33,051 nucleotides of DNA from Burkholderiales bacterium (GTDB taxonomy: Bacteria > Pseudomonadota > Gammaproteobacteria > Burkholderiales > Burkholderiaceae_C): positions 1-33,051 of the forward strand of contig JAGWVB010000015.1 in the NCBI GenBank assembly GCA_018971105.1. The letters are read 5' to 3'. A model generated the notes under the pieces. That model saw nothing but the letters and a program-made list of their open reading frames with translations, had not been told where the DNA came from and made no database searches. A program made the translations under genes and the position numbers. Below are positions 1 to 17,065 of this stretch, one piece after another (position 1 is the stretch's first letter; each line of letters opens with the position of its first letter).

Positions 1-1392
1 GGCTGGATCGTGCTCGGCCTGCTCGACGACGACCCGGCCAAGCGCGGCGCGCGCATCGGCGGCGTGCCGGTGCTGGGGCCGCTGGCGCTGCTGGCCGAGC
101 CGGTGGCGCCGGCGGCGGCCTATGCGGCCGCGACCCACCTCGTCGTCGCGATGCCCTCGGCGACGCCGGCGCAGCGCCGGCGCGCCTTCGAGCTTGCGGC
201 CGGCACCGGGCTGCCGGTGCTCACCGTGCCCAGCGCCGACGAGCTGCGCACCGGCAAGACGCGCGTCGAGCGGCTGCGCGACATCGAGGCCGAGGACCTG
301 CTCGGGCGCGCGCCCGTGGTGCTCGACGAGGCCGGCATCGCGCAGACGCTGAACGGCAAGGTCGTGCTCGTCACCGGTGCCGGCGGCAGCATCGGCAGCG
401 AGCTGTGCCGGCAGCTGGCGCGCTTCGGGCCGGCGCGGCTCGTGCTGTACGAGCTGAGCGAATTCAATCTCTACACGATCGAGCAGGAGCTCGGCGAGGC
501 CTTCCCGGCGCTGCCGCTGGTGCGGCTGATCGGCGATGTCAGGGACCTGGCGCACCTGCGCCGCACGCTGGCGCGCTGGCGGCCGCAGGTCGTCTTCCAC
601 GCCGCGGCCTACAAGCATGTGCCGCTGATGGAGGACGACAACGCGGCGGCCGCGCTGCGCAACAACACGCTGGGCACCTACCACGCGGCGCTCGCGGCGG
701 CCGAGGCCGGCGCCGAGCGCTTCGTGCTCATCAGCACCGACAAGGCGGTCAATCCGACCAACGTGATGGGCGCGACCAAGCGCGCGGCCGAGATGGTCGT
801 GAGCCAGCTCGCGGCCGAGCACCGGGCGACGCGCTTCATGGCGGTGCGCTTCGGCAACGTGCTGGGCAGCAGCGGCAGCGTGATCCCGAAGTTCAAGGAA
901 CAGATCGCGCGCGGCGGCCCGGTGACGGTGACCCACCCCGAGATCATTCGCTACTTCATGACCATCCCCGAGGCGGCGCGGCTGGTGCTGCAGGCGGCGG
1001 CGATCGGCGAGAGCGGCCAGGTGCTGGTGCTGGACATGGGCGAGCCGGTGAAGATCGTCGACCTGGCGCGCGACCTGATCCGCCTGGCGGGGCACACGGC
1101 GGCCGAGATCCCGATCGTCTACACCGGGCTGCGGCCGGGCGAGAAGCTGTACGAGGAACTGCTGGCCGACGCCGACGACACGTTGCCGACGGCGGTGGCG
1201 AGCCTGCGCGTGGCGCGGCTCAAGGAATGGGCGTTCGGTCCGATGATCGAACTGCTCGAGAAGGCGCGCACCGAGCATGCGCTGGACGACGGTCCGGTGC
1301 GCGAGCTGTTGACCCAGGTGGTCACCGAGTACCGGCCCGCTGCCGTGCGGCGTTCAGACCGGGCTGTCGGCGACCATCTCGGCGGTGGGTAG
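1..1392 (+). CDS. Nucleotide-sugar 4,6-dehydratase, WbpM/CapD/PglF family (5' end missing)
   Basis: The reading frame is open from base 1 to the TAG at 1390-1392, so the start and the usual N-terminal membrane helices lie outside the window. The visible 463 codons begin in a CoA-binding-like Rossmann domain and continue into the SDR dehydratase domain. The NAD-binding motif GAGGSIGSEL is at nt 376-405 and the active-site block STDKAVNPTNVMGATKR begins near nt 733. In this block Met replaces the SDR Tyr (MxxxK), which is normal for the long membrane-bound branch of the family. Known members convert UDP-GlcNAc to a 4-keto-6-deoxy sugar for O-antigen, capsule or glycoprotein glycans. The 3' end overlaps the convergent gspE by 39 nt. 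Family is certain; exact substrate is not. Confidence 0.93.
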   Translation, partial: GWIVLGLLDDDPAKRGARIGGVPVLGPLALLAEPVAPAAAYAAATHLVVAMPSATPAQRRRAFELAAGTGLPVLTVPSADELRTGKTRVERLRDIEAEDLLGRAPVVLDEAGIAQTLNGKVVLVTGAGGSIGSELCRQLARFGPARLVLYELSEFNLYTIEQELGEAFPALPLVRLIGDVRDLAHLRRTLARWRPQVVFHAAAYKHVPLMEDDNAAAALRNNTLGTYHAALAAAEAGAERFVLISTDKAVNPTNVMGATKRAAEMVVSQLAAEHRATRFMAVRFGNVLGSSGSVIPKFKEQIARGGPVTVTHPEIIRYFMTIPEAARLVLQAAAIGESGQVLVLDMGEPVKIVDLARDLIRLAGHTAAEIPIVYTGLRPGEKLYEELLADADDTLPTAVASLRVARLKEWAFGPMIELLEKARTEHALDDGPVRELLTQVVTEYRPAAVRRSDRAVGDHLGGG

Positions 1393-3057
1393 GCTCAGCA
1401 CTTCGGGAAGACTGGTTTCGCCGCGCCAGAACTTGAGCAGCGCATCGTGTTGCAGGGAGCGGAAGCCCTCGGGTTCGCAGGCGCGAAGGTCATGCGGTGA
1501 AAAGTCACCGCGCGACAGTTTCTGCCGCAGAGCATCGGTCGTCGGCAGGAATTCATGCACCCCGACACGCCCGCGGTAACCCGATCCGGTGCATTGCGCG
1601 CAACCGGTCGCCGCCCGCCCCAGATAGTTCGACCGGGTGAGACCGGTGCGCGTGGCGGCGTCGGACAACAGCGGCGGGATCTCTTCCAGAGCCAGAGGCA
1701 CTGCGCAGTGACGGCACAGGCGCCGGATCAATCGTTGCGCGACGACGCCGCGCACGCTGGCAGCCAGCAGGAACGGCTCCACCCCCATGTCGGCCAGACG
1801 GACGAACGCGGACGCTGCATCGTTGGTATGCAGCGTCGACAGCACCTTGTGGCCGGTCAGCGAGGCCTGGATCGCGATCCGTGCCGTTTCGGTGTCGCGT
1901 ATTTCACCGATCATGATCGTGTCGGGATCATGCCGAAGAATGGCCCTTAATGCGGCCGGAAAACTGAATCCGATATCCGATTGAACCTGAAACTGGGTGA
2001 TACCCGGTAATTGATATTCCACCGGATCTTCGACCGTCAGCACCCGCGTATGTTCGATGTCAGTGGCCGCCAGCGCGGCATACAAGGTCGTGCTCTTGCC
2101 CGAGCCCGTCGGTCCGGTGACGAGAATAATGCCGTCGGGCTGTTCGAGCCATCGATTCAGCAGCAGCAGGTGGTCGTCCTCGAGGCCCAGTGCGTCGAGG
2201 CGAAAACGCCGCTGGGCGGTCTTGGGCAACAGGCGCAGCACGGCTGATTCTCCATGCACGCCTGGGATGACCGATACGCGGACTTCGGTCTCGATGCCCG
2301 CGGCGCGGGTCGAGAATCGCCCATCCTGCGGCAATCGCCGTTCGGCGATGTCGAGCCCGGCAATGAGCTTGATGCGGCTCGAAACGGCGTCGAATTTCTG
2401 GCGCGGGTGGAGTTCGGTCTGGCGCAAGCCACCGTCGACCCGGTAGCGGACGGCGAATTCACCCTCGCCGGGTTCGATATGGATGTCCGAGGCGCCGAGA
2501 TCGGTGCCCCGGGCCAGCATCGATGCGACGAACTCGACGATCGGCGCATCCTGCGCCAGCTGTCGCAGGTCGCGGTGGCCGCCGAGTGCCGCGTCGGTAC
2601 GGGAAGCGTCGCTGTACAGGCTGGACAGGGCAGCGGCCAGGTCCTGCCCGGTGGCGAGCATCGACTCCAGCCGGCGTCCACCGGATCGATGCTGGAGATA
2701 TTCGGCCAGTTCGGTCAGCAGCGGATCGCGCGCGACCAGGAGCAGGCCGTCATTCGCGGACGGACTGACGAAGGCTTCCCACCGGCGGGCGAGGGATTCG
2801 GGAAGCGCGTAGCTCTCGTTGAGCGAATTCAGCGCGCGCTCGAGTATTTCGGATTGGTTTGTACGATTCCAAACCGGAAGTTCGAGTTGCGCGGCCAGGC
2901 ATTCGTAAAGAGTCGCTTCCGATATCAATCCGTGGCGAATCAATATCGCACCGATCCGGAGCCGGGTCGATCCGTTGTCTTCCTGTTCTTGCAGCGCCAA
3001 CTGGAGGTCGGCATCGACCACATGGCCACGGCTGATCAACAGTTGTCCTAACAGCAT
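1354..3057 (-). CDS. gspE: Type II secretion ATPase GspE
   Basis: 567 residues. This is the cytoplasmic hexameric ATPase that drives pseudopilus assembly in type II secretion. An N-terminal GspE/PilB domain (about residues 1-150) precedes the ATPase domain. Walker A GPTGSGKST is at 315-323 (Lys321), the Asp-box/Walker B stretch DTIMIGEIRD is at 379-388, and the His-box STLHTND follows. A four-cysteine zinc site (C448, C451, C486, C489) marks the GspE branch. The ATG at 3057 is the only sensible in-frame start; its ribosome site is weak (GGAA about 15 nt upstream). It is separated from the other gsp genes by the surface-protein gene and sits 26 nt after a strong terminator, so it depends on readthrough or on a promoter I could not identify. 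The 3' end overlaps the convergent dehydratase gene by 39 nt. Confidence 0.96.
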   Translation of the reverse strand: MLLGQLLISRGHVVDADLQLALQEQEDNGSTRLRIGAILIRHGLISEATLYECLAAQLELPVWNRTNQSEILERALNSLNESYALPESLARRWEAFVSPSANDGLLLVARDPLLTELAEYLQHRSGGRRLESMLATGQDLAAALSSLYSDASRTDAALGGHRDLRQLAQDAPIVEFVASMLARGTDLGASDIHIEPGEGEFAVRYRVDGGLRQTELHPRQKFDAVSSRIKLIAGLDIAERRLPQDGRFSTRAAGIETEVRVSVIPGVHGESAVLRLLPKTAQRRFRLDALGLEDDHLLLLNRWLEQPDGIILVTGPTGSGKSTTLYAALAATDIEHTRVLTVEDPVEYQLPGITQFQVQSDIGFSFPAALRAILRHDPDTIMIGEIRDTETARIAIQASLTGHKVLSTLHTNDAASAFVRLADMGVEPFLLAASVRGVVAQRLIRRLCRHCAVPLALEEIPPLLSDAATRTGLTRSNYLGRAATGCAQCTGSGYRGRVGVHEFLPTTDALRQKLSRGDFSPHDLRACEPEGFRSLQHDALLKFWRGETSLPEVLSLPTAEMVADSPV

Positions 3058-3082: not shown

Positions 3083-3110
3083 AAAAAGGCGGGGGCCGAA
3101 ACCCCCGCCT
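3083..3110 (-). terminator. Intrinsic terminator of the surface-protein gene
   Basis: On the - strand a perfect 9-bp stem (AGGCGGGGG / CCCCCGCCT, 3110-3102 and 3095-3087) with a 6-nt loop is followed by a T run (TTTTTC, then ATTTTC). It begins 30 nt past the surface-protein stop codon and ends 25 nt before the gspE ATG. It has every feature of a Rho-independent terminator. Confidence 0.93.
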
Positions 3111-3140: not shown

Positions 3141-4844
3141 TTACTTGGCGTTCTGGGTGTTCTGCTGGTTGCCCGACGGGCCTTCGGCGCTCTGCGCACC
3201 CGAGGCTTCGAAGAACTGGCCCGTGCTGTTCATCACGTAGTTCTGGACGCGGATCGACGAGGTCGGCGCGAAGATGCGCAGGCGGGCATTGCCGTTCACG
3301 TCGTTCGGCGCCGTGTAGGTCACGCCACCACCGGCAGCCGAGGCCGCGTTGAGCGCGGCATCGATCGTCGGCGACAGGTAGTAACGCACTTCCAGCGGGG
3401 CGAACGGACCGGTCTTGCCACCGACGGCCGCAACCATCGCCAGGTTCACCGAGGCACCCAGAGCGCCACCGGCGGTCAGGACCTGCGCGGTCGGCGAGGC
3501 CGACTGCGACGGGTCGGTGTTGATCACGCGGATCACGCTTTCCCAGCCGTTGGCGGCGGTCACGATGCCCGGGACATAGTTCCGGACGTCGATCTGCACG
3601 CCGTTGGCGGTCAGGTTGTACAGGTTGCCCGGGCACATCGGGGTCGCCAGTTCACCGGAGTTCGTGGTGCGCAGCAGCGTACCGGAAGCGAGCGAGAACA
3701 TCGCCGGCGGCACCACGTTCGTGCCGTTCGTCGTGTAGCAGACGTAGGCCGTGCGCGAACCACCGACCGCGGGCAGACCGGCATTGTTCATGCTCGCCGC
3801 CGGGACCGTGATCGTCGCCGAGGTGCTGTTGGCGTTCAGGAGCTGGGTGACGCCAGCCAGCGGCGTGTTGCAATCGGGGGTCGACGACACGCTGAACAGG
3901 CCGCCCGTGACGATGGTGCCGCCCGTGGCATTGACGGTGATGGTCGCGCCGTTCTCGGAAACGCCACCGTCGCCGGCTGCGTCGACGCCCCAGTTCGCGT
4001 TCGCGACCGTGTACAGCGTGGCGCCATCGGTGTCATACAGCGACTGATGCGGACCGAAGGTCACCGAGCCCAGGTTGATCCGGGTGGTGCCGAGGACGCC
4101 GTCCGTGATGTCGGCGGGAACGTTCGTCGTGAAGAACTTGCCCAGCGAAGGCTGCTGGACGTTGATCTGCGACTCTTCGTTGAGCGCCGGAACGGTCGAG
4201 CTGAACGCCGAGCTCGAGGCCACGGTGACCGTCGTGGCGGTATTCGACTGCAGGATCGGCGTCGAATTGATCGCGCTCGCCAGGTTCGAATCGAACGGCG
4301 AGCCGGCGGCGTTCGTCAGGGCGATGGTGACGCCGATCGAGGCGGGCGTCGGGTTGCAATAGTTGGCCGCCAGGGCCGGCGTCTGCAGCGTCGTATAGAC
4401 GTTGCTGATGGTGCCGTTGGCGCCCAGGTTGGCGCCGTAGGTGCCGAGAACGATGGTCGAATTCGACGGGAACGTGATACCGCTGTTGAGCGTGAAGGCG
4501 TAGCTGACCTGGCTGGGATTCGACGCGCTGATGACACCGGGGGCGCCCGCGAGGATGTCGGTGCCGTTGACGCCGATCAGGGTCGCCGTCGGCAGCGCCG
4601 CGGCATTCCAGGTCGCACCGTTGGTCAGCGTGTAGGTGACCGTGAACGAGTTCGGGTTGCCCGCCGTGCCGGTCAAGGGCAGGGCCAGCGAATAACCGAT
4701 CGTCGGCGCGGTCAGCGAGACGTTGCTACCGAAGACTTCGGCGGCGAAATTCTTGTACGACGCTTGGATCACACCGGCACTGGCGTTGGTGGCGATACCG
4801 ACGAAAGCGCTGGCCAACAGGGCAGAGAGTACTTTACGCTTCAT
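3141..4844 (-). CDS. Exported S-layer-like surface protein, candidate T2SS substrate
   Basis: 567 residues. I do not recognise a named family. A clear Sec signal peptide is present: MKRK, a hydrophobic core, then an ASA|G cleavage site after residue 23. The mature protein is rich in Thr, Ser, Ala, Asn, Gly and Val. It has only four lysines and four cysteines, and looks all-beta, as expected of an S-layer or other abundant extracellular protein. I see no C-terminal sorting motif, transmembrane anchor, lipobox or T1SS GGxGxD repeats. The start at 4844 is chosen because GAGGAA (4854-4849) lies just upstream; an in-frame ATG at 4856 would place that site inside the gene. It has its own promoter and terminator and lies between gspD and gspE, which suggests type II export. 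It could instead be an adhesin or sheath protein. Export is well supported; S-layer identity is inference. Confidence 0.85.
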   Translation of the reverse strand: MKRKVLSALLASAFVGIATNASAGVIQASYKNFAAEVFGSNVSLTAPTIGYSLALPLTGTAGNPNSFTVTYTLTNGATWNAAALPTATLIGVNGTDILAGAPGVISASNPSQVSYAFTLNSGITFPSNSTIVLGTYGANLGANGTISNVYTTLQTPALAANYCNPTPASIGVTIALTNAAGSPFDSNLASAINSTPILQSNTATTVTVASSSAFSSTVPALNEESQINVQQPSLGKFFTTNVPADITDGVLGTTRINLGSVTFGPHQSLYDTDGATLYTVANANWGVDAAGDGGVSENGATITVNATGGTIVTGGLFSVSSTPDCNTPLAGVTQLLNANSTSATITVPAASMNNAGLPAVGGSRTAYVCYTTNGTNVVPPAMFSLASGTLLRTTNSGELATPMCPGNLYNLTANGVQIDVRNYVPGIVTAANGWESVIRVINTDPSQSASPTAQVLTAGGALGASVNLAMVAAVGGKTGPFAPLEVRYYLSPTIDAALNAASAAGGGVTYTAPNDVNGNARLRIFAPTSSIRVQNYVMNSTGQFFEASGAQSAEGPSGNQQNTQNAK

Positions 4845-4848
4845 GAAA

Positions 4849-4854
4849 TTCCTC
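4849..4854 (-). promoter_or_regulatory. Ribosome binding site of the surface-protein gene
   Basis: GAGGAA on the - strand, followed by TTTC and then the ATG at 4844. It decides between that start and the in-frame ATG at 4856. It is one of the few strong Shine-Dalgarno sites in this window. Confidence 0.8.
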
Positions 4855-4909
4855 ATTTGTTTCAAGATATGACATCTCAACAAGCACGCCGATTCCCGAT
4901 TGTTCTCGT

Positions 4910-4921
4910 CAGCGGCCGCTG
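4910..4921. repeat. 12-bp perfect palindrome in the surface-protein 5' leader
   Basis: CAGCGGCCGCTG reads the same on both strands. It lies about 20 nt downstream of the predicted transcription start and could be an operator or a short leader hairpin. GC-rich palindromes of this size also arise by chance in such a genome, so function is not established. Confidence 0.35.
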
Positions 4922-4948
4922 CACCTGTTCGATGTGACAGCTCGGGCG

Positions 4949-4976
4949 AGTATACATACAGCAAGGGGTCGCGCAA
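4949..4976 (-). promoter_or_regulatory. Sigma70-type promoter of the surface-protein gene
   Basis: On the - strand TTGCGC (4976-4971) is followed after 16 nt by TATACT (4954-4949). This is the best -35/-10 pair I found in the window. Transcription would begin near 4942, giving a leader of almost 100 nt before the ATG at 4844. The site lies in the 257-nt gap after gspD, so the surface-protein gene can be expressed independently of the upstream gsp genes. Confidence 0.72.
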
Positions 4977-5101: not shown

Positions 5102-7546
5102 TCACGGGCGTCTTATCGCGTCTTGCAGCTCCTTCAAAATTTTCGGGTCCGTCACCGGCGTGCCTGCCGCGGCGCGCGGCGCATCCGGTCCCGTTGCGCC
5201 TGTCTTCGGTAATGGGGAGGTGGTCTTCGTCGTAGTATTACCGAAATCAGGGCGTGTTCCAAGGCCGGACGGAGAAGATTTCGGGGTCGTGGTGGAGGGT
5301 GCCGAGGCGGCCTCTCCCGAAGTCGGTGCCGATGGGGGGGGCGGCGGCAGGATGTACGGTTTCGGTGCGGGGATGGCGTCTTCGAGTCCGTTGCGCGGCG
5401 CGGTGGGCGCCGGCTCGACCTGGGGCGGGCGCAGGTGTTGTTCGGTCGTGTCCGAGTCCCAGGTGAACTGGTTGCGGAAGGCGGCTGTGATCGAGTGGGC
5501 TTCGAACTCGTCGTTGATGACGTAGGGCGTGATCAAAACGATCAGCTCGGTGCGATCGCGCGTCTTGTGGTGGCTCTTGAACAGGTTGCCAGCCCAGGGG
5601 ATGTCCTTGAGCCAGGGCACGCCGGTGTCGGTGTTCGAAGCCGTCTCCTGCATCAGGCCACCGAGCAGCACGGTCGCGCCATCGGTCACCGACAGCTTGG
5701 TCGTGAGATGTCGCGTCGCAATCGTCGGCGACGAGGTGACACCGGACTGCGTGGCGCTGGCTGAACTGACTTCCTGGTCGACGTCGAGGTCGATGCGGCC
5801 TCCGGCATGGATCACCGGCTTGACCTTGAGGATGACCCCGGTCGAGCGATATTGAATCGTCTGCAGCAGGCCGTTCTGCAGCGTCGTGCCGCCGTTGGAA
5901 CTCGTGCTGGCCGCGGTCCCCGTGGTCTGCTGCGAACTGATGACGGGCACTTCGGAGCCGACCTGGATCGATGCCATCTCGCCGTTGCGGGCCATGATGC
6001 TCGGATTGGCCAGCACACGCACCCGGGACGTCGATGCGAGCGCGTTGAACAGCGCCCGCGGCGTGGTGCCGTTGCCGGCGGTGACCACCGCGGCGAGCCC
6101 GCCGATGGCTGAAGTTCCGAACGAGCCCAGCGTGCTGACGTTGACGTTGTTGCCTGCGCTCTGGAACTGGTTGAGCATCCACTCGAAGCCGAGCTGCTCG
6201 CTGGCGTTCAGCGTGACCTCGGCGATCGTGACCGAAATCAGCGCGCTGCGCGGCGGGCGGTCGAGTTCCTGAAGCAGCCCGAACCACTGCTGGTACTCGG
6301 TCGGATTGCCCTGGATGATGAGCGTGTTGCTGGCCGCATTGACGACCACGCGCGAGCGCGTCGCGCCGGCGCCGGCGCCGCTGGTCCCTGCCGGATTCAT
6401 GACGTCCTGCAGCGTCTTGGCGAGCTCGGATGCGTCCAGATTCCGCACCGCATAGGTGAAATAGCCGGCGCTGCCGCGACCGCTGGCCGGTTGATCCAGA
6501 TCGGTCGCCCAGCGCAGCACGTAATTCAAGATCGCTTCACTGCGCGCGAAGACGAGCACGGAATTCAGGGGTGGGATCGGCAATAGGATGATCGGAGCCT
6601 GGGCATTGGCCATGGTGCCCACCGAGTAACCCTGGGCTTGCAGGACTTCGGCCAGCCGCTTGGCCATTTCGTCCGCGGACCAGAACAGCGGTGCGATGCG
6701 CGCGCTGGCGCGCCCTCGCATCAAGGGCCGGTCCAGCGACTTGATCGCATCGACGGCCGCGGCCACGTCGTCGCTCTGGCCGCTGAGCAGGATGGCCTGG
6801 CCGCCGAGGTCTTCCTGGACCTGCAGGCGCTGGCCGAAAAGCGTACGCAGCCAGCCCGCGACGGTGGCCGGATTGACGGCCTCGAGGTCGACGATCTGGA
6901 AGATCGGGCGCAGCGCAGACGGTACCTCGGGCAGCGAGCGGCCCATTCTCAACTCGGGCACGAATCCGGTCGGTCCGGTGCCCGGCGTGATGCGCAGCAG
7001 TCCGTTATATTCGGTAACGGCGATATTGAAGGATTTCAAGACGGATACCGCTGCCTCGTAAAGGCCCTGGGCAGTTTGCGGTTTGCCGCTTTTCAGGCTC
7101 ACCAGTTCCTTGCGTTGGGCAATCGATGGATCGACCGAAATGTTGCGCTTCAATATCGTCGCGAACACGGTGTCGATGAATGCCGGCAGGGGCAACTGCT
7201 CGATCGAGACGGCGGTTTCGAGCGTCGGGTCCGCCGGCGGCATGGTGCCCGCGGACGAGGGCAGGGGCTCGACCTTGCCGGGGGCCGGCGGCGTCGGCAC
7301 CTGGAACAGCCGGTTCTTGGCCGCCACGGGCTGCCCGGTGGCCGCCTCGGCGCCGCCGGCCGACGCCGCGGCTTCGGGCTCCATCGCGGTCGATCCACGG
7401 CGGACCATCTCCATCGCACTGATGTCGCGTGGCGGCAGGATCGGGGGCGGCATCGTGGCGCAACCGCCCAGGCCGAGCGCAAACGCGGCGGACAGGCGCG
7501 CGCGCAGGCGGGCGCGGGTCGGGGCGTACGGGGATTTGGATGTCAT
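5102..7546 (-). CDS. gspD: Type II secretin GspD, predicted lipoprotein
   Basis: 814 residues, forming the outer-membrane channel of the T2SS. The N-terminus is basic, then hydrophobic, ending in the lipobox LGGC (Cys29), so it should be lipidated like the lipo-secretins XpsD and HxcQ. After a Pro/Ala-rich linker come N0 (from about residue 100), N1 to N3 domains, and a secretin core with the VPVISSQQ region, the GVILKVKPVI strand and a C-terminal LIVLITPYVI. About 120 residues of proline-rich, low-complexity tail follow, making it longer than most secretins. The ATG at 7546 overlaps the gspC stop by 4 nt (ATGA). No pilotin (GspS) gene is visible, which fits a self-targeting lipoprotein secretin. 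Confidence 0.96.
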   Translation of the reverse strand: MTSKSPYAPTRARLRARLSAAFALGLGGCATMPPPILPPRDISAMEMVRRGSTAMEPEAAASAGGAEAATGQPVAAKNRLFQVPTPPAPGKVEPLPSSAGTMPPADPTLETAVSIEQLPLPAFIDTVFATILKRNISVDPSIAQRKELVSLKSGKPQTAQGLYEAAVSVLKSFNIAVTEYNGLLRITPGTGPTGFVPELRMGRSLPEVPSALRPIFQIVDLEAVNPATVAGWLRTLFGQRLQVQEDLGGQAILLSGQSDDVAAAVDAIKSLDRPLMRGRASARIAPLFWSADEMAKRLAEVLQAQGYSVGTMANAQAPIILLPIPPLNSVLVFARSEAILNYVLRWATDLDQPASGRGSAGYFTYAVRNLDASELAKTLQDVMNPAGTSGAGAGATRSRVVVNAASNTLIIQGNPTEYQQWFGLLQELDRPPRSALISVTIAEVTLNASEQLGFEWMLNQFQSAGNNVNVSTLGSFGTSAIGGLAAVVTAGNGTTPRALFNALASTSRVRVLANPSIMARNGEMASIQVGSEVPVISSQQTTGTAASTSSNGGTTLQNGLLQTIQYRSTGVILKVKPVIHAGGRIDLDVDQEVSSASATQSGVTSSPTIATRHLTTKLSVTDGATVLLGGLMQETASNTDTGVPWLKDIPWAGNLFKSHHKTRDRTELIVLITPYVINDEFEAHSITAAFRNQFTWDSDTTEQHLRPPQVEPAPTAPRNGLEDAIPAPKPYILPPPPPSAPTSGEAASAPSTTTPKSSPSGLGTRPDFGNTTTKTTSPLPKTGATGPDAPRAAAGTPVTDPKILKELQDAIRRP

Positions 7547-8007
7547 GGCTCTAACAGGTAAAGGGTGCGTTTGCGGCCGCGCCGGTTCACGACGTCCGCA
7601 TGGTCGACCTCGATCGACGTGATCTTGTCGCCGTCGGGCAGGCGTTCGCCGACGCCCAGGGTCAGCGGCACCTGTCCCGGGCTGGCAAGCACCGCGTACC
7701 GGGCCTTGCCGCGCACCACCAGCGCGGCGAATTGCCAGGGCTGGGCCTCGGCAGCGGAGGCCGCAGTCTGCGGCGCGGCCAGGATGGCTGCGGTGGCCTG
7801 CACCAGGCCCATCGGGTCGACGGCCGAGATCTCGGCTGCCAGCTCCTTGGGCGTGGGCTCCGATGCCTGAGCGCTCGATGCGGCCCGCGGCAGGTCGGAT
7901 CGGGTGGCACTCCCGGCCAGTGCGGGCGGGTGGTGTATCCACCAGGCGGCGGCCCCGGCCCCGAACCAGAGCAGGCATGCCCATGCGATGCGCGCTCCGA
8001 TCCTCAT
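7543..8007 (-). CDS. gspC: Short GspC/XpsN-type inner-membrane protein without PDZ domain
   Basis: 154 residues: a short cytoplasmic N-terminus, one transmembrane helix (about residues 8-25), an Ala-rich linker, and a C-terminal beta domain beginning WQFAALVVRGKARYAVL and ending VNRRGRKRTLYLLEP. That domain resembles the homology region (HR) that contacts the secretin N0 domain. Classical GspC proteins are nearer 270-300 residues and carry a PDZ or coiled-coil domain; none is present here. Position between gspM and gspD matches xpsN in Xanthomonas, whose product plays the GspC role. It overlaps gspM and gspD by 4 nt each. Role as the secretin connector is inferred from position and fold-like pattern. 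Confidence 0.8.
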   Translation of the reverse strand: MRIGARIAWACLLWFGAGAAAWWIHHPPALAGSATRSDLPRAASSAQASEPTPKELAAEISAVDPMGLVQATAAILAAPQTAASAAEAQPWQFAALVVRGKARYAVLASPGQVPLTLGVGERLPDGDKITSIEVDHADVVNRRGRKRTLYLLEP

Positions 8008-8582
8008 CGAGGTTCCTGACTCGTCAGCAACACGGGTACGGACACGACCATCTCCACATGCCGTGTCCGGGCCTGGACCGACAGGCTGTCGATGCGCGCG
8101 AGCTGGCCGCCGCCCTCGATCTGGACCAGGGCGTTCTCGAGCGCCTTGGGCATGAGATCGAAGCCGACGGTTGCCCGCACGCGCAGCGTCGACAGCGCGG
8201 CCGCCGATGCGGCCGGTGCGGGCAGCAGCGGCAGCAGGCTCACCGAAGGCCGCGGGACCTCGGCGGTGCGCAGGGCGACCGTGAGCCAGTCGCGCAAGCG
8301 GGCCTGGGCCTGGGCCTGGGTCGGGGCTTGCCAGAGCCGCTTCTGCAGCGTCAGTCGACGGGCGTCGACACTGCGGGTCCGGGCCTGCCAATCCTGCGCA
8401 TCGTTGCTGGCGGCCAGCAGCGCGGCCTGGCCGCGCAGGCGCGCGATCTCGGCATCGAGCTTCTGGTGGCTATCCCAGACGCGCATGCCGAGTTCGGTCG
8501 CGATGATCAGCGCCCCGATGCCGACCAGCGGCAGCAGCCGACGGTCGAATTTGAAGTGGCGCGCAAGGTCACGCTTGTCCAT
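8004..8582 (-). CDS. gspM: Type II secretion protein GspM
   Basis: 192 residues. A short basic cytoplasmic end, one transmembrane helix (about residues 16-34), a coiled-coil-prone stretch (LDAEIARLRGQAALLAAS onward) and a small C-terminal ferredoxin-like periplasmic domain match the GspM layout. GspM pairs with GspL in the inner-membrane platform. The stretch RLWQAPTQAQAQARLRDWL is the typical region before the final domain. It starts 3 nt after the gspL stop and overlaps gspC by 4 nt. The GspM family is poorly conserved, so the call rests on architecture and gene order. Confidence 0.88.
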   Translation of the reverse strand: MDKRDLARHFKFDRRLLPLVGIGALIIATELGMRVWDSHQKLDAEIARLRGQAALLAASNDAQDWQARTRSVDARRLTLQKRLWQAPTQAQAQARLRDWLTVALRTAEVPRPSVSLLPLLPAPAASAAALSTLRVRATVGFDLMPKALENALVQIEGGGQLARIDSLSVQARTRHVEMVVSVPVLLTSQEPR

Positions 8583-8585: not shown

Positions 8586-9683
8586 TCAGCGCCCTTCCTG
8601 CGCCGCCGGCCTGTGCAGCGTGGCGGTGACCGTCAGGGTATCGCCGCCGCTGTCCTGCCCGACCTTCAGGGCTCCGAGCTCAGGGACCGCCTCGAGGCGT
8701 CGGGTGATGCCGAGCAGGGTCACATCGCGATTCGGCAGCGACAACGTGATCTTGAGCGAGTCGTTGCGGTAATCCCACTCCAGCAACTGCGCTGCCTTGG
8801 GCACTGGCGCGGCCCCGCCGACGGGCAACCCCGGCATCGGTGTCGTGGACGCTGCGGCCGCCGGCGCCACAGGCGTCGTCGGCTTCGGCGCGTCGAACAC
8901 GCCGCTGCGGGTCACCCGCGCGAGCAGTTCGAGCTGCGAGACGCGCGGCACCAGGGCCTGCAGGGCGTCGAGCTGCTGCTCCGCTTGTTCGTACTGCGCG
9001 CGCGCGGCCAAGGCGGACTCGCGCTCCTTGCGCAGTTCGGCCACGCGCAGGGTGTCGCGCGAGACCTGGTCCAAGGCCTGCAACTGGGCACCCAGCCCGG
9101 CGCTGGCCACGGCGCCGAGGCCCAGGGCCACGGCCTGCCAGCGCCAGCCTTGCCAAGGGTCCCGGGCCGGCAGACTGTCGCCGTAAAGCCAATCGGCCTC
9201 GGGTTGCTTGAGCGCCGGCGCGGCTTGGACCGCGGGCAGCGGATGAGCTGCGGGATCGAGTCCGCAGCCGCGTGCGAACGCCTGCCATGCCGACGCGCTC
9301 GGCGCGGTTGCGAACCAGCGGCTGTGGCGCAATTCGCCCTCGAGCCAATGTTGCGCTTCGCAACCTGGATCACGAGAGATCAATCGCAGGCCGGCACCGC
9401 TTGCGTCGAGCAGCGGCTCGGGCCAGGACGGACCGCGGCCCGCGCCGGTGGATCGCGCCGCGATCGGCCAGGCCCACGCGGCGACCGCGCCTGCACTCTG
9501 GGGCCTGCAGGCGTAGGCGAAAGGGCCCAGCGGCAGGTACTGCGTCAGCTGGAGCCGGACCGCATCGAGCAGCTTGCCACGGCTCAGTGCCGGCAGCTGC
9601 AGGCGCACGAAGGTGAGATCCTTGCGCGCGATCGTGGCAGGCGGCGGGCGCCGCAGGGCTGCCAAAGTCTGCTGAAGGGTCAC
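8586..9683 (-). CDS. gspL: Type II secretion protein GspL
   Basis: 365 residues. A cytoplasmic actin-like (PilM-type) domain about 175 residues long, shorter than in many GspL proteins, is followed by one transmembrane helix (about residues 182-201), a coiled coil (about 203-245, RKERESALAARAQYEQAEQQ) and a periplasmic ferredoxin-like domain. GspL links the GspE ATPase to the GspM/GspC/GspF platform. The start is GTG at 9683, within a GTGA overlap with the gspK stop; no better start was seen. An Ala/Pro/Thr-rich insert interrupts the periplasmic part. Confidence 0.9.
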   Translation of the reverse strand: MTLQQTLAALRRPPPATIARKDLTFVRLQLPALSRGKLLDAVRLQLTQYLPLGPFAYACRPQSAGAVAAWAWPIAARSTGAGRGPSWPEPLLDASGAGLRLISRDPGCEAQHWLEGELRHSRWFATAPSASAWQAFARGCGLDPAAHPLPAVQAAPALKQPEADWLYGDSLPARDPWQGWRWQAVALGLGAVASAGLGAQLQALDQVSRDTLRVAELRKERESALAARAQYEQAEQQLDALQALVPRVSQLELLARVTRSGVFDAPKPTTPVAPAAAASTTPMPGLPVGGAAPVPKAAQLLEWDYRNDSLKITLSLPNRDVTLLGITRRLEAVPELGALKVGQDSGGDTLTVTATLHRPAAQEGR

Positions 9684-10696
9684 TGCAGGATGCCGAAGGG
9701 CGTCATGATCACGGGGGCCTGTTGGACGGGTGACTGGTCTGGCAATTCCGTCACCTGAGACCGGGGCGGCAGCGGATCGGTGCGCGGCCGCCGCAGGCTG
9801 TAGTCCACATGCCAGGGAGCTTCACCATCGGCCGAGGTTGTCAGGCTCACCCGCTGGCACCAAGCCACCGATGTCGGGCAAAGCGTCAACAGCAATGTGG
9901 CCGATGGTTGCGCCAAGTAGCGACTGGCACCGAAGAAACTGCCGCGGGCGATGTTCGGCAGCGATTCTATAGCCAGTGGCCGACCGCTATCGCGCAGCGC
10001 GATCAGTGCCTGCGCGGCAGCCAGGTCGGCGCCGCCGGCGGCCGCGAGGACAGGGGCCTTGACGGTGTTCCGGTTGAGCGCGTTATCGGTGCTGACATAG
10101 ACGTTGTCGAGGATCTTGCGCAGCGTCGCGGGGTCGAGATCCTTCCACGCCATGATGCGCTGCAGTTCGGTCGGCATGAGCAGAGCGCCGTTGCGCGGTG
10201 GTGGCATCCCTGCGGCTGCGTAATCGGGTGCTTCGGCGCCGTTCAGGCGGACCAGGCTGTCGGCGTCCTGGTAATCCAGCAGCGTGTCGGTCAGCGTGTC
10301 GATCGAGGCCTCGGGCACGCCGAGGGCACGCAAGAGGCCGCTGATCTCGAGCCCGCTGGCATGGCGCAGGTCGATCAATGCACCGCCATCCAGGACCGAG
10401 ACATAGACGCCGCTGCTGGTGTCGTAGTAGCGGCCGTCGAGCTGGATCGTTCCCATCTGCCCACCGGTGCGAGGCAACAGGCTGCTGATGTACATCATTC
10501 GAGCCAGCGTGTCCTGTACGGCGGCTTCGGCATCGGCTTCCTGCTTCGAAGCCACGACCAGTTCGCGCAGCTGGTCGCTGCGATGCGACATCAAGGCGAC
10601 GCCGACCGAGATCAGCGCGAGCAGGATCACGGTGGCCGGCAGCACGAAGCCGCGTATCGATAGGGCGGTGCCTGGACGGCGCTGGTCGCGTCTCAC
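9680..10696 (-). CDS. gspK: Minor pseudopilin GspK
   Basis: 338 residues, the large tip pseudopilin. A 16-residue basic leader ends in RG before FVLPATVILLALISVGVAL. Position +5 of the mature protein is Ala rather than Glu, the known signature of GspK. The alpha domain with the helix-hairpin-like segment (VPEASIDTLTDTLLDYQDAD) is recognisable. The GTG start at 10696 overlaps the gspJ stop (GTGA). It should cap the pseudopilus together with GspI and GspJ after cleavage by a GspO/PilD peptidase, which is not in this window. Confidence 0.93.
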   Translation of the reverse strand: MRRDQRRPGTALSIRGFVLPATVILLALISVGVALMSHRSDQLRELVVASKQEADAEAAVQDTLARMMYISSLLPRTGGQMGTIQLDGRYYDTSSGVYVSVLDGGALIDLRHASGLEISGLLRALGVPEASIDTLTDTLLDYQDADSLVRLNGAEAPDYAAAGMPPPRNGALLMPTELQRIMAWKDLDPATLRKILDNVYVSTDNALNRNTVKAPVLAAAGGADLAAAQALIALRDSGRPLAIESLPNIARGSFFGASRYLAQPSATLLLTLCPTSVAWCQRVSLTTSADGEAPWHVDYSLRRPRTDPLPPRSQVTELPDQSPVQQAPVIMTPFGILQ

Positions 10697-11337
10697 GGTT
10701 CAGCGGCCATCGGGCCCATCGGCGATCGCGGTTGCGGCAGTTGCCAAGGGCTCGCCCGCGGCGCGACCAGCAGCGTCATCGGTCGTGCCTGGCCGGCGAA
10801 CTCGATCGTGAACTGGATCAGCGCCGGAAGCGCTGGCGGGCTCGTTGCACCGGTACCGGACACGGAGTCCTCGGGCGGCCACTGGTCATGGCTGGCGCCG
10901 GTCGCATCGAGATATTTCAGCTCGGCGGTTTCGAGCTTCCAGGGGTAGGTGACGCCCTGGAGGCCCGGATAGTCGATGTGCAAGGCCAGCGCCGGGCTAC
11001 TGCCTTGAATCTGCAGCGTCAACGGCAGTGGCGCGGCGCCCATGCTGGGCGCCAGCGAGGCCGCGCTCTCGCCCGTGAATCCCTGCCGATCGCCCTGGAA
11101 CGTGACCCCGGCGCCGACGCGCGGGCTCACCAGCCCGGCGATCAGCTGGCGCAGTGCAAACGTCAGCTGTTGCTGCTGCTGCATTTGCCGGCTCGCAGCC
11201 GCCAGCCGCTCCTGCGCCTGCAGCGCCTGGAACCAGCCTGCCATCAACACCGCGAAAAGCAGCGCGAAAATGGTCACCGTGATCAGCACCTCGAGCAGCG
11301 AAAAGCCGCGTGCCACGGGTCGGGCCGGTCGATTCAT
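10693..11337 (-). CDS. gspJ: Minor pseudopilin GspJ
   Basis: 214 residues. An 11-residue leader (MNRPARPVARG) is followed by the class III prepilin motif FSLLEVLITVTIFALLF with Glu at +5. The remainder fits the GspJ beta domain. The ATG at 11337 overlaps the gspI stop by 4 nt and the stop overlaps gspK by 4 nt, so the three tip pseudopilins are tightly coupled. Confidence 0.93.
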   Translation of the reverse strand: MNRPARPVARGFSLLEVLITVTIFALLFAVLMAGWFQALQAQERLAAASRQMQQQQQLTFALRQLIAGLVSPRVGAGVTFQGDRQGFTGESAASLAPSMGAAPLPLTLQIQGSSPALALHIDYPGLQGVTYPWKLETAELKYLDATGASHDQWPPEDSVSGTGATSPPALPALIQFTIEFAGQARPMTLLVAPRASPWQLPQPRSPMGPMAAEP

Positions 11338-11801
11338 GGCGGCGCAATGTTGATGCCGATGCCGGGGGGGCCGGTATTGCGCGGCCGCACCTGGGCATAA
11401 CCGGCGCTGATGCGTTCGATGACCTCGGGATCGGCCTTCGAGTCGAGATCGGAAACGGTCACCCGCACTTTGTAGAGACCGACCTGGTACGGACTGATGC
11501 CGGCCGGGTAACGGAGCTGGTCGAGCGGGCCCTGGATCGGAGTCGCCTGCCATGCATAGCGATGGTTGGCGGTCTGCAACTCGCCGCTCGGGTGCTGACC
11601 CGGATTGATCGCGTAGACCAGTTCGGTCACATTGCGCTCGATCTCCGCCTGCTGTTGTACCACCGCCGCGCGCGTCGCGGTCTGCAGCGTCTGGCCGGCC
11701 CAGACGAAGAGCGAGGCGCCGAAGCCCGAGATCACGACCAGGGCGACGATGACTTCGAGCAGCGAGAACCCCGCCGCGCGGGCTGCGGTGCGCCGTTTCA
11801 A
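11334..11801 (-). CDS. gspI: Minor pseudopilin GspI
   Basis: 155 residues from the chosen start. The motif AAG|FSLLEVIVALVVISGFGAS is a class III prepilin signal with Glu at +5. I choose the TTG at 11801 because it sits in a TTGA overlap with the gspH stop, like most junctions in this run, and has an AGG 7 nt upstream. A second TTG at 11840 would add 13 residues to the leader but lacks a visible ribosome site; no ATG or GTG lies in between. The tip complex of GspI, J and K is the inferred role. Confidence 0.88.
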   Translation of the reverse strand: MKRRTAARAAGFSLLEVIVALVVISGFGASLFVWAGQTLQTATRAAVVQQQAEIERNVTELVYAINPGQHPSGELQTANHRYAWQATPIQGPLDQLRYPAGISPYQVGLYKVRVTVSDLDSKADPEVIERISAGYAQVRPRNTGPPGIGINIAPP

Positions 11802-12283
11802 GGGCTGGCCTGCGCGAGTTCGCTCGAGGTGACCGCGCAAGTCTGGCGCGCGATCGAGATGCGCCAGCGCCGGGTTCCGCTGGCCGGCTGCAACAACACC
11901 GAGGCCGCATCGCAGGTGCCGGAAGACCAGAGCGTGCCGACGTGGTCAGCCTGGACCGTCCACCCCGGCGGCAGGTCCAGCGGCGGCCTGCCGTCCGGCA
12001 GCGGACGTGCCAATGCGCCGGCGTCGAGCCTGAGGTCTATGCCCAGCGTCGCGGCTCGAGCCGGAAGCAGGCGCGCGCTCGCCAGCACCTGCTCCAGATC
12101 GGCGTCACTGAATGCCGAATCGAGTCTCTGTGCCAGCCCGGGCAATACGACCGCAGCCGCCATCGCGATGATGCTCAAGGCGATCAGGACCTCAAGCAGC
12201 GTGAACCCGGTCCGACCCGTCGACGGGCCGCGACGCTCACTGCGGGGCAGGTACGGCACCCATGTCGTGGCCGATGTCGGCAT
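11798..12283 (-). CDS. gspH: Minor pseudopilin GspH
   Basis: 161 residues from the ATG at 12283, which lies 47 nt inside gspG and has GAGGG 5 nt upstream (12293-12289). This gives a long 26-residue leader before TG|FTLLEVLIALSIIAMAAAV. A GTG at 12259 would shorten the leader to 18 residues. The GTG overlapping the gspG stop is out of frame and cannot be used. Glu is at +5. Two cysteines in the C-terminal half (SGTCDAA, RQTCAVT) may pair. Family assignment rests on the prepilin motif and its position between gspG and gspI. Confidence 0.86.
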   Translation of the reverse strand: MPTSATTWVPYLPRSERRGPSTGRTGFTLLEVLIALSIIAMAAAVVLPGLAQRLDSAFSDADLEQVLASARLLPARAATLGIDLRLDAGALARPLPDGRPPLDLPPGWTVQADHVGTLWSSGTCDAASVLLQPASGTRRWRISIARQTCAVTSSELAQASP

Positions 12284-12704
12284 CGATGCCCTCGCCGCCG
12301 GGTTTGCCGTCGGCACCCAGCGAGATGATCGAAAACGGGCGGCCACCGTCTCCGGGCACCTGGTATTGGTAGGGGTTGTTCCACGGATCGAGCGGAACCG
12401 CTTCGTCCAGGTACGGTCCCTTCCAGCGCGCGCGCAGCGCCGGGTCGGTGGGCGGCGTGACGAGCATCGACAAACCGACGTCGGCTGGCGGATAGATGCC
12501 AATGTCCATGCGCATGGTCTCGATCGCGCCGCGCAGCAGCTTGATCTGGACTCCCGCAGTCTGGACCTTCGAGGTGTCGACCTTGGAGAACAGGCGCGGA
12601 CCGACGAGACCGGCGACGAGGCCGATGATGACGAGTACGACCAGCATTTCGAGCAGCGTGAAGCCGGCTGCGGGTCGGGCACGGGAGGATGGGCGTGCTG
12701 TCAT
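12237..12704 (-). CDS. gspG: Major pseudopilin GspG
   Basis: 155 residues. A 14-residue leader ends AAG before FTLLEMLVVLVIIGLVAGLV, with Glu at +5. The GspG core is clear: the helix IKLLRGAIETMRMDIGIYP, the block LDPWNNPYQYQVPG, and the calcium-loop-like C-terminus SLGADGKPGGEGIDADIG. It forms the pseudopilus shaft. Translation starts 2 nt after the gspF stop. Confidence 0.96.
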   Translation of the reverse strand: MTARPSSRARPAAGFTLLEMLVVLVIIGLVAGLVGPRLFSKVDTSKVQTAGVQIKLLRGAIETMRMDIGIYPPADVGLSMLVTPPTDPALRARWKGPYLDEAVPLDPWNNPYQYQVPGDGGRPFSIISLGADGKPGGEGIDADIGHDMGAVPAPQ

Positions 12705-12706: not shown

Positions 12707-13933
12707 TCAGAATTTGACGTCGGACAGAGAGGTGAGGGCGAGCATGACTCCCACGATGATCATGGCGATGATACCGCCGAGGACGATGATGGCAGCCGGT
12801 TCGATCAGTGCCACGAGACGCTTGCGCAGGCGCCGGTTCTGTTCGAGCGCATGGGTCGCGACATGCCCCATCATCACGCCGACATTGCCGGTGCGCTCAC
12901 CCACGCGGACCATGCTCAATGCGGTCGCCGGCAGCAGTCCGTATTCGTCGAGCGAGCGCGAGAGCGATTCACCGCGACCGATGTCGCCCATCGTGCGGCG
13001 CAGCCTGTTCGAGACCTCGGCCAGCGTCATGGCCTGCGCGGTGAGGTCGAGCGCAGTGAGTATCGGTACCCGGCTCTGCAGCATCAGGGCCAGCATGCCG
13101 GTCCAGCGCGAGAGTTCCTGCTGGCGGATCCAGGTTCCCAGCACCGGCAGGCGCGAGAGCGCCCCGCGGATGCGCACCGGACCGATCGCCTTCCAGGCCG
13201 ACGCGCCCAGCACCGCCGCCGTCGCCAGCGCGATGCCGATCAACGCGCCGTGGCGGTCGAAATAGTCGCCGATGCCGAGCACGGCAGCCGACAGCCAGGG
13301 CAGGTCGACCTGACGGCCGGCGAGCAGCTTCGAGAAGCGCGGCACGACAAAGGAGAATACGAACAGCACCGCACCGGCTCCGGCCAGCACGAGGATGATC
13401 GGGTAGACGAGCGCTTCGGAGGTCTCGGCCCGCACCTGTTCGTCGAACTCGAGCTGTTCGGCCGCCCGCCCCAGTGCGGCAGCCAGGTCACCCGTCGATT
13501 CGCCCGCCGAGATCAAGGCCACGACATAGCTGGGCAGTGCCAGATCGCCGGACTCCGACTGCTTGCGTACCGCGGAAGAGAAACGCTCACCCGCCAGCAC
13601 GAGGGTGAGTACTCCGGTCAGCGGCGCCTCGAGCGCGAGGCCGCGCCGGCTCTCGATCAAGGTGCGCAGCGATTCCTCGAGCGTCACGCCGGCGCCTAGC
13701 AGCGACGCCAGTTCGCGCACCATCAGCACCAATGCGACGCGACCGCCGCCTTCGCGGCGCTTCCAGCTGCCGAGCACGTTCGCGCCGCCGGCATCCGGAC
13801 GGGCGGGCCGCAGCGTCAAGGCCGTCAGGCCGCGGCGCGCCAGTTGCGCCACCGCGCCGGCTTCGCTCTCGGCTTCCTCCGCGCCGCGTTGCGGGGCGCC
13901 GCTGCCGTCGATCGCTTCGTAGTTGAACAGCAT
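12707..13933 (-). CDS. gspF: Type II secretion inner-membrane protein GspF
   Basis: 408 residues, the polytopic platform protein. Two repeated cytoplasmic T2SSF domains (about residues 70-195 and 275-395) are each followed by hydrophobic segments, giving three predicted membrane helices. Typical stretches include LASLLGAGVTLEESL in the first domain and RVGERTGNVGVMM in the second. The ATG at 13933 lies 3 nt after the TAG of the upstream glycosyltransferase gene. gspF is the first gene of the secretion block, and gspE is absent from its usual place immediately before it. Confidence 0.96.
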   Translation of the reverse strand: MLFNYEAIDGSGAPQRGAEEAESEAGAVAQLARRGLTALTLRPARPDAGGANVLGSWKRREGGGRVALVLMVRELASLLGAGVTLEESLRTLIESRRGLALEAPLTGVLTLVLAGERFSSAVRKQSESGDLALPSYVVALISAGESTGDLAAALGRAAEQLEFDEQVRAETSEALVYPIILVLAGAGAVLFVFSFVVPRFSKLLAGRQVDLPWLSAAVLGIGDYFDRHGALIGIALATAAVLGASAWKAIGPVRIRGALSRLPVLGTWIRQQELSRWTGMLALMLQSRVPILTALDLTAQAMTLAEVSNRLRRTMGDIGRGESLSRSLDEYGLLPATALSMVRVGERTGNVGVMMGHVATHALEQNRRLRKRLVALIEPAAIIVLGGIIAMIIVGVMLALTSLSDVKF

Positions 13934-13936: not shown

Positions 13937-15148
13937 CTAGTTCGCCTGGCCGCCGGCCCGATCGGAAGCCAGAGTCTGACGCAGTCGCTGCGCCAGCGCA
14001 GCGCCGATGCGGTTCCAGTCATGGTGCTGCTCGACATAGTGGCGCGCGCGCTCGGTCATCGGCAGGGCGCCGTGGCGATCCGTCGCGAGGCGATTCAAGG
14101 CCGCGACCCATTCCTCGGCCTTGTCCGCGAGCTCATACGTGCCGGCCGATTCCGCCAGCAATCCGCCCGCCACGGAGGGCGACAGCACCGCGGGCAAGCC
14201 CATGGCGAAGTACTCCAGCACCTTGTTCTGTATGCCCGTGGCCACGTTCAGCGGCGCCACGGCGGCGTAGCAATCGGCACAGGCCGCTGCGATGTCGGGC
14301 ACCCGTCCCGTGACCTCGACGCCCGGCTCGCGCTCGAATTCACGGCGCAACGCGGGCGGGCAATCGCCGATCAGCTTCAGGCGCGTGCCGGCGGGCAGCG
14401 AAGGGAGCACGTGACGGGCGAACCAGAGCGCGCCTGAGCGATTGGGGTAGGTGTCCATCTTGCCTACCAGGGCCAGCGCCGAGCCGGACCGGCGATCAGG
14501 ACCGACGAAATCAAAGAGATCCAGATCGACGCCCTGCGTCACGAGCAGCGTCCGTTCGGGCGGCGCACCGAGCTTGCGCGCATCCGCCGCACTGACGAGC
14601 GTGAGCAGATCGAATCGGCCGATCTCCCGCTGCTCGAAGCGGCTCACCCGGGGACCCTCGATGCGGCTGATCCATGTCCAGGGCTTGAACAGGCTGGCGG
14701 TTCGAACGACCTGGTGATAGTTGCTGGATATCGCGTCGCAGAGGTCGAGCACGGCCGGAATGCGCCTTTGACCGCGCCACACCTGCGAGCAGCGAATCAG
14801 GTGACACACGATGACGTCGCTGCGACCGAGACTGCCTGCGACTTCGGCGTCGAGTTTCGCGTTGTCGAAGTAGCCGACTTGCAACGGCAGTCCTCGCACC
14901 AGCGCCCGTGCGGCGCCGCGCAGCGAGAGCCAGCGGCTGTGGGCGATGGCGCGGGCCTGCGCCACGCCGGTCTCGCGGCAGAAGGATCGGATCTCGTCCT
15001 CGTCGCTCGAACCCAGGCCCAGCAATTCGACGTCGAAATCGCGCGCGAGCAGCCGCGCGAGGTGAAAAACGCGCAGCCGATCACCGCCGATGGGCGGATA
15101 CGGAAAGCGGCTGGTGATGAAGAGCAGGCGTTGGCGAGGTGATGTCAT
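13937..15148 (-). CDS. Glycosyltransferase family 4 (EpsH1/PEP-CTERM-associated type)
   Basis: 403 residues. The N-terminus RLLFITSRFPYPPIGGDRLR resembles the sugar transferases found with EpsH1-type exopolysaccharide loci. The C-terminal GT-B domain holds the nucleotide-sugar binding region with VLEYFAMGLPAVLSP. It probably transfers one sugar of the repeat unit in the cytoplasm. Linkage and donor cannot be read from sequence. It is the last polysaccharide gene before the T2SS block, with only 3 nt separating its stop from the gspF start, while 61 nt separate it from the GT2 gene upstream. Confidence 0.88.
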   Translation of the reverse strand: MTSPRQRLLFITSRFPYPPIGGDRLRVFHLARLLARDFDVELLGLGSSDEDEIRSFCRETGVAQARAIAHSRWLSLRGAARALVRGLPLQVGYFDNAKLDAEVAGSLGRSDVIVCHLIRCSQVWRGQRRIPAVLDLCDAISSNYHQVVRTASLFKPWTWISRIEGPRVSRFEQREIGRFDLLTLVSAADARKLGAPPERTLLVTQGVDLDLFDFVGPDRRSGSALALVGKMDTYPNRSGALWFARHVLPSLPAGTRLKLIGDCPPALRREFEREPGVEVTGRVPDIAAACADCYAAVAPLNVATGIQNKVLEYFAMGLPAVLSPSVAGGLLAESAGTYELADKAEEWVAALNRLATDRHGALPMTERARHYVEQHHDWNRIGAALAQRLRQTLASDRAGGQAN

Positions 15149-15209
15149 GCGATGGCCGGGGCCGTGAGGCGCGACCGCGCTCGCGCGAAGAATGCAGCGG
15201 TTCGACCGG

Positions 15210-16136: not shown

Positions 16137-17065
16137 GGCGCCTGATCCCCGCTGCCGATCGGGCGCGCGACGACTTCGATCGCGTCACCCTGGCGAGCCA
16201 TGTTCAGCGCCCCGGAAATGAACTGCGAAAGCACGCGCAACGTCATCGAATTGATCAACCATCCATCGGTCGAAACCCGCTGCGGTCGGTTCCTGTTGAT
16301 CCAAATCTGCAGGCTGCCGAGGATGCCGCCGTAATTCCCCGCATAGCGCACCGACAGAACCTCGAAACCATGCTTGGCGAGCAGGGCGGAAAGATGATGC
16401 AGCGAGAAGTTGTATGTGTGCACCGGCGCGCCGAGGTACCACCAGTAGCGGCCGAACCATCGCGCTGCAGCGCTGTCGATATTCGGGACTCCGATCAGGA
16501 GACGTCCGTCGGCCCGGATCAGGCGTCGGAACTCCGCGATGGTGGCGTCGCAATCCGGATCGTGTTCGAGGGAATGATTGGACCGTATGTAATCGAATTG
16601 GCCCGCCGGCAACTTCTCGCTGAGGACCGTGCCAGTCCTTATGTCGAGCCCGTACTGCTCGCGCCCGAACCTTGCCGCGGCGCCGCTCGGTTCGACACCG
16701 ATGCACTGCCATCCCGCATCGCGGAACTTCAGCAGCGACCAGCCGGAACCGCAGCCCGAGTCCAGGACGTGCCCGGCATGTTCGAACCCGGGATCGACGA
16801 CGATCAACGACGGAAACAGTCGCTCCTTCAGCCATCGCATCCAGCCTGGGCGCCGCGCAGCGAGGTCATGGTAGGCATAGAAGTCGGACGGGTACAACGC
16901 AATCAGCTGTTCCGCGCTCGGCATCGGGTCGAGTTGCACCAGTCCGCAATCCGTGCATCGGGCGACGTTCCAGGTGCCGGCGATGCGGTAATGCCGATCG
17001 CGGGTCACATAGATGGTTCGGCGACCGACGCCACCGCAGACAGGGCAAGGGTGGGGGCCGTTCAT
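16133..17065 (-). CDS. Zinc-ribbon class I SAM methyltransferase
   Basis: 310 residues. An N-terminal zinc ribbon (CPVCGG at residues 7-12 and CTDCG near 37) precedes a Rossmann methyltransferase domain with HVLDSGCGSGWSLLKF as motif I and a SNHSLEHDPD post-motif. This CxxC plus methyltransferase layout is common in polysaccharide loci, where such enzymes methylate sugars or glycan ends. It overlaps the genes on both sides by 4 nt. The methylation target is unknown. Confidence 0.87.
   Translation of the reverse strand: MNGPHPCPVCGGVGRRTIYVTRDRHYRIAGTWNVARCTDCGLVQLDPMPSAEQLIALYPSDFYAYHDLAARRPGWMRWLKERLFPSLIVVDPGFEHAGHVLDSGCGSGWSLLKFRDAGWQCIGVEPSGAAARFGREQYGLDIRTGTVLSEKLPAGQFDYIRSNHSLEHDPDCDATIAEFRRLIRADGRLLIGVPNIDSAAARWFGRYWWYLGAPVHTYNFSLHHLSALLAKHGFEVLSVRYAGNYGGILGSLQIWINRNRPQRVSTDGWLINSMTLRVLSQFISGALNMARQGDAIEVVARPIGSGDQAP

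Follow-up and report, generated by a model that had tools for sequence, protein, structure and literature searches.

Gene content of the window

The window analysed here is a stretch of 33,051 nucleotides from a Burkholderiales bacterium (contig JAGWVB010000015.1), and it contains a candidate surface-layer protein gene at positions 3141–4844 of the minus strand, stop codon included, which encodes 567 amino acids. The gene is embedded in a type II secretion system (T2SS) gene set with the order gspF, G, H/I, J, K, L, M, C-like, D, candidate gene, E, all on the same strand. Family profiles identified gspF (12707–13933), the major pseudopilin gene gspG (12237–12704), a gspJ-type minor pseudopilin gene (10693–11337) and a gspE-type ATPase gene (1354–3057), while the divergent secretin gene gspD (5102–7546) was assigned to a cargo-linked lineage by family profile and trees combined. 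The matches to gspK (9680–10696) and gspM (8004–8582) fell below the family cut-offs, and that to a gspC/pilP-like gene (7543–7980, start not fixed) was weak (E 0.01); gspL (8586–9683) had no family match and was assigned by position, homologues being present in the same place elsewhere. Genes for gspH/I-type minor pseudopilins occupy 11340–12236 with approximate limits, one of the two stretches tested giving no family match. The location of the candidate gene inside a T2SS set, between gspD and gspE, as put forward in the preliminary description, was confirmed with NCBIfam, both neighbours scoring beneath the respective cut-offs (gspD 319 against 351 bits; gspE 492 against 630 bits). The window accordingly displays a trait of systems of the VapA, Slr4 and NpdA type, namely a coat-type gene linked to a T2SS gene set.

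Surface-polysaccharide genes flank this set. A CapD/FlaA1-type polysaccharide biosynthesis protein is encoded at 10–1392 (plus strand), genes for glycosyltransferases, an epimerase, wecB, wzz and wza lie at 13937–30420 (minus strand, limits approximate), and a wecA-type (family 4) glycosyltransferase gene follows at 30577–31863 (plus strand), such that a Wza/Wzz/WecA/WecB polysaccharide locus extends over 13937–31863 directly after the gsp set.

The reading frame of the candidate gene can be extended upstream to a GTG at 5105, while a conserved GAGGAA precedes the ATG at 4844. From that ATG, inspection by eye indicated a Sec signal peptide of 23 residues (4776–4844, minus strand) ending in an AxA motif, and revealed neither a lipobox nor a recognisable C-terminal anchor in the 567-residue protein; a Sec signal peptide without a membrane anchor is likewise a trait of T2SS-linked S-layer systems. 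Composition counts on the mature chain gave four lysines (residues 31, 236, 477 and 567), four cysteines, 12.7% Thr, 9.6% Ser, 9.4% Asn and 13.6% Ala. The earlier portrayal of a genuine 567-residue exported-type frame, poor in lysine, rich in Thr, Ser, Asn and Ala and devoid of an anchor, was thereby borne out. So low a lysine count is not typical of the family: the 21 relatives with a usable row (the mis-cut fragment L049 being left out) carry 7–29 lysines. Neither Pfam nor NCBIfam returned a family match to the protein, and a sequence search of the PDB gave chance-level matches only.

Expression signals flanking the gene

Alignment of upstream regions from six genomes, the window included and one of the six being cut short at its 3' end, revealed a candidate −35 hexamer TTGCGC (4971–4976, minus strand), of which TTGC was invariant in all six, and a candidate −10 hexamer TATACT (4949–4954, minus strand), invariant throughout. 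A promoter scan of the region called no promoter, and the attribution of an own promoter consequently depends on the conservation of this TTGC...TATACT pair. The ribosome-binding site GAGGAA (4849–4854, minus strand) was present in 6/6. Invariant positions across the six regions numbered 60, with 47 falling in the 110 bases from TATACT onward and 13 in the 150 bases before.

Downstream of the putative promoter, the untranslated leader (4845–4943, minus strand) contains the invariant blocks AGCTGTCACATC and CGGCGTGCTTGTTGAG. A search of 175 loci located each of these two 12-base blocks in 17, which are without exception copies of the six subfamily genomes; among the loci searched, this highly conserved leader therefore occurs only upstream of this gene subfamily. 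A structured leader RNA was considered and dropped, as folding was not unusually stable (z −1.26), changes on both sides affected only 2 of 21 predicted pairs, and Rfam gave no match to the leader at gathering scores.

On the 3' side of the gene, scanning identified an intrinsic terminator (3087–3110, minus strand; hairpin read from 3110 to 3087) in a region for which 1.9 such sites would be expected by chance, and alignment established that the hairpin and its T run were kept in 5/5 sequences, again counting the window. Of the two signals claimed for the gene in the preliminary description, the terminator was hence upheld, and the promoter stands by conservation, the scan having called none. 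The effective codon number of the candidate gene, 31.5, was the lowest of 12 window genes compared (12 of 13, wza being left out).

A divergent family linked to T2SS genes

When the candidate protein alone served as query, 2 of 61 genomes matched (its own and G029); a two-row profile extended this to 8 of 399 genomes of the order, and a ten-row profile to 17 of 399 genomes of the bacterial family. A pattern scan of genome contigs with the alignment matched 60 stretches, from which 26 loci were confirmed, while a single-sequence scan matched 24 stretches with none confirmed; a search of plasmids gave no match to the family. Members were recovered from Chitinilyticum, Andreprevotia, Undibacterium, Sulfuritalea, Ramlibacter, Comamonas, Variovorax, Pelomonas, Rubrivivax and uncultured bacteria, and on sequence grounds the candidate protein is a member of a divergent betaproteobacterial family. 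Conservation is strongest at the mature N-terminus and in a C-terminal region that bears the motifs DVRNY, RxIN and RxQNY. Pfam gave no match in any of the 26 members scanned, so that the initial statement that the protein belongs to no nameable family still holds, NpdA being excluded by sequence (see below).

Linkage was assessed over 37 distinct loci, comprising the window and those from the survey after removal of duplicates L021 and L154 and omission of L057 (a 3.6 kb contig) and L070; the weak match L153 (G839) yielded no reading frame above threshold. Genes of the gsp type lay near the family gene in 33 of the 37. The order gspD–gene–gspE on one strand was recorded in 14 loci (with a 6.8 kb gap before gspE in L146), and gspD plus the gene, with no gspE in the DNA examined, in three. 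In 11 others the gene was divergent from gspF, gspE then following in ten and being absent from one (L041), and five had other layouts with the gene within about 6.5 kb of gspD. The remaining four had no gsp gene in the DNA examined, two of them (L035, L048) near contig ends and two (L028, L030) being Andreprevotia copies. The survey called for in the preliminary description hence substantiated linkage as such, while the strict gspD–protein–gspE order proved not to be universal, being only one of several layouts.

The two Andreprevotia genes in question (L028, 7998–9746; L030, 7965–9689) are family members, and A. lacus has, in addition to such a copy without gsp genes in the DNA examined, a T2SS-linked one located on a different contig (L040).

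Measured against the window, the candidate protein was less conserved than gspE in 14/14 loci with both, and less conserved than gspD among the 17 loci compared, with the exception of one partial gspD match (L018). However, gspL and gspM were about as diverged as the candidate protein in several loci, and divergence alone consequently does not mark it as cargo.

GspD lineages and their association with the family

Among 60 genomes of the Rubrivivax-like genus to which the window belongs, four contained the family protein, and a window-like GspD (E 1e-40 or better) was detected in six, all four carriers among them; the chance of four carriers out of four falling within these six is 3e-5. The other two were G030 and G017, the GspD of the latter accompanying an NpdA-type gene. 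GspD of the window's own lineage was found in five of the 60 genomes, the four carriers plus G030. By way of comparison, a canonical GspD exceeded the TIGR02517 cut-off in 52 of the 60. The full-length GspDs of G000, G001, G029 and G450 scored 313–327 bits against the same profile, and the window's genome also carries a canonical GspD (566 bits) as well as PilQ. A T2SS separate from the housekeeping one, another trait of VapA-, Slr4- and NpdA-type systems, is thereby present in this genome, and its second, canonical GspD (L163, G000:C273) was positioned far from the window GspD in the tree.

On the 5.1 kb G030 contig (L186, G030:C202), gspK-type genes are accompanied by the initial portion of a GspD whose nearest relatives are those of the cargo-linked lineage. 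This contig ends inside gspD, where the gene would follow, and a search of the G030 assembly detected no member of the family.

A 40-row GspD tree, built by a quick method without bootstrap and with the root not fixed, placed 24/24 cargo-linked rows on one side of a branch (SH-aLRT 99), all 13 NpdA-linked rows used in a separate group (99), and three canonical rows in a third (100). The 24 cargo-linked loci had been chosen as those with most of gspD, loci with partial gspD being left out, and no GspD was obtained from 1 of the 14 NpdA loci and 4 of the 7 other loci supplied. A smaller, more careful tree agreed, with the 24 cargo-linked rows together (99/99) and two NpdA-linked rows apart, while flagging long branches between groups. 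In the loci sampled there is, as far as these trees indicate, one GspD lineage per cargo. The dedicated machine–cargo pair that the preliminary description had deemed plausible is in consequence a prediction well supported by conserved linkage, co-occurrence within the genus and a cargo-specific GspD clade.

Predicted structure and surface-polysaccharide genes

The AlphaFold2 model of the protein (mean pLDDT 79, pTM 0.65) consisted mostly of beta strands. In a Foldseek comparison with the PDB, the first matches were chains of Ig-like domains from adhesins, among them antigen I/II C-terminal domains, and from pilins, at TM values of ~0.2, and no S-layer structure was among the best 50 of 1072 matches; fold matches in BFVD were generic. 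The predicted Ig-like fold is evidence for a surface protein but does not single out an S-layer protein.

Relatives of wecB, wzz, wza and wecA were located within about 20 kb beyond gspF in G450, G029, G517, G601 and G809, thus in 6/6 with the window. A search of 26 further stretches representing the wider family left most of them without such relatives in the DNA examined, the exceptions being a wzz relative at the G001 locus (in two overlapping stretches) and a wecA relative at that of G413; none of the four had a relative alongside 14 NpdA loci. The O-antigen cluster of Aeromonas encloses both the sps T2SS and vapA (PMC4413209, PMC4483657, accessible text), and reassembly of a Delftia S-layer protein is described in the available part of PMC3110197 as having needed LPS. 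From this cluster layout and LPS requirement, it is a reasonable inference that a coat in the present organism might be anchored by the neighbouring glycan.

Comparison with known T2SS-linked coat systems

Compared by description, the window resembles the VapA/Sps system of Aeromonas in combining a T2SS set and one coat-type protein gene beside a surface-polysaccharide cluster. It differs in that vapA follows spsD, and in that Aeromonas O-antigen export uses an ABC-2 pathway whereas the window genes are of Wza/Wzz type (accessible text of PMC4413209 and PMC4483657). The T2SS of VapA is called a dedicated system in the portion of PMC7821379 available, which also describes Slr4 of Pseudoalteromonas: by that description slr4, like the window gene, adjoins its gsp cluster, being directly downstream, and its product has a Sec signal peptide, but the host is a marine gammaproteobacterium.

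A published parallel from the same bacterial family is NpdA, a T2SS-linked S-layer protein reported from Delftia and Paracidovorax; in P. citrulli its signal peptide comprises 25 residues and the mature protein has a mass of 52.4 kDa (PMC10765051, PMC3110197, parts available). The reference used here was the NpdA-like gene of G842, assigned by signal-peptide length, mass and neighbourhood, without an accession: it encodes an exported protein (25-residue signal peptide, mature mass 53.0 kDa) after a set ordered E, F, G ... D. Relatives of this reference occurred in 52 of 399 genomes of the bacterial family. No genome appeared in both sets (17/399 and 52/399), and as zero overlap has a probability of 0.09, mutual exclusion is not claimed.

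Within the window's genus, another species (G017) carries an NpdA-type gene (L152, 7164–8957) beside a different second T2SS, from which it follows that the genus holds at least two unrelated coat-protein cassettes.

Interpretation and alternatives

With the family, its linkage, the GspD lineage, the conserved flanking signals and the polysaccharide neighbours observed computationally, the gene probably encodes a secreted S-layer protein of a new family, distinct in sequence from NpdA and served by a dedicated T2SS. We infer the S-layer role from architecture and composition, from the Ig-like fold and from resemblances to VapA, Slr4 and NpdA, so that of the initial proposal of an S-layer-like protein, the machine–cargo pairing is sustained and the coat function stays conditional. 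Systems of this kind are already known from VapA, Slr4 and NpdA; what is new is the sequence family, most likely one of S-layer proteins. As envisaged, the protein would be made in bulk from its own promoter, cross the inner membrane by Sec and be carried over the outer membrane by the adjacent T2SS, which would act as the cell's second, cargo-dedicated system. It would then assemble into a lattice-forming coat of Ig-like domains, most likely held by a glycan from the neighbouring Wza/Wzz/WecA locus.

That the protein might instead be a very divergent NpdA is suggested by the shared niche, by a T2SS-linked, exported-type protein of some 50–60 kDa (~55 kDa mature) with four cysteines in both, without known (Pfam) domains, and by the presence of NpdA in the window's bacterial family and, through another species, in its genus. 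Sequence comparison makes this highly improbable: blastp with NpdA gave E values no better than 0.92 against the family members tried, with 3.0 against the window protein, while hhalign of the mature chains (36 against 31 rows) returned a probability of 0.2%, with no detectable relation. A 75% hhalign match obtained with signal peptides included begins on those peptides and spans the first 85 columns. The GspDs fall in separate clades, and the linked gsp cluster differs in layout, the npdA-like genes of G842 and G017 following gspD at the end of the set and the window gene lying between gspD and gspE. Filing the candidate as NpdA was accordingly rejected.

More serious, yet still unlikely, is a non-crystalline adhesin or matrix protein that is secreted by the T2SS and covers cells or biofilm with no ordered S-layer; the predicted fold resembles Ig-like adhesin domain chains, such proteins have a like composition and export route, and Slr4 is described as both an S-layer protein and a biofilm matrix component (PMC7821379, available portion). 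The single cargo of each T2SS lineage and the conservation of the expression signals are nevertheless more readily explained by a bulk coat than by a minor adhesin. A structural or accessory T2SS part, such as a secretin partner, would account for a gene of conserved linkage inside the gsp set and for the comparable divergence of gspL and gspM, but the gene has its own promoter-like pair and terminator, and two Andreprevotia copies stand in DNA where no gsp genes were found. Known T2SS parts are also unlike the candidate protein in size and composition, and we hold such a role to be very doubtful.

The S-layer reading bears on a wider proposal, for which the balance is about even: betaproteobacteria may possess at least two separate T2SS lineages, tied one each to two unrelated S-layer families (that of the window and NpdA) and each gained and lost as an envelope cassette, the window's with an anchoring glycan locus. 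A T2SS lineage would in that case pass on its choice of cargo by inheritance. The basis of cargo recognition by T2SSs has long been debated, most machines carrying many unlike cargoes. Two lineages with one linked cargo family each provide dozens of natural machine–cargo pairs, in which co-variation could point to recognition surfaces and part swaps could test them, and the gene thereby offers a route to testing how export machines become tied to a single cargo.

A survey of the literature, mostly outside subscription journals, found no description of the family, its machine lineage or the cargo-wise partition of GspD, and the accessible part of the Andreprevotia proteome paper (PMC8802321) contained nothing on the family protein. 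The present assignment predicts an S-layer in Pelomonas, Undibacterium, Chitinilyticum, Andreprevotia and Sulfuritalea, genera absent from the NpdA tables in the available part of PMC10765051.
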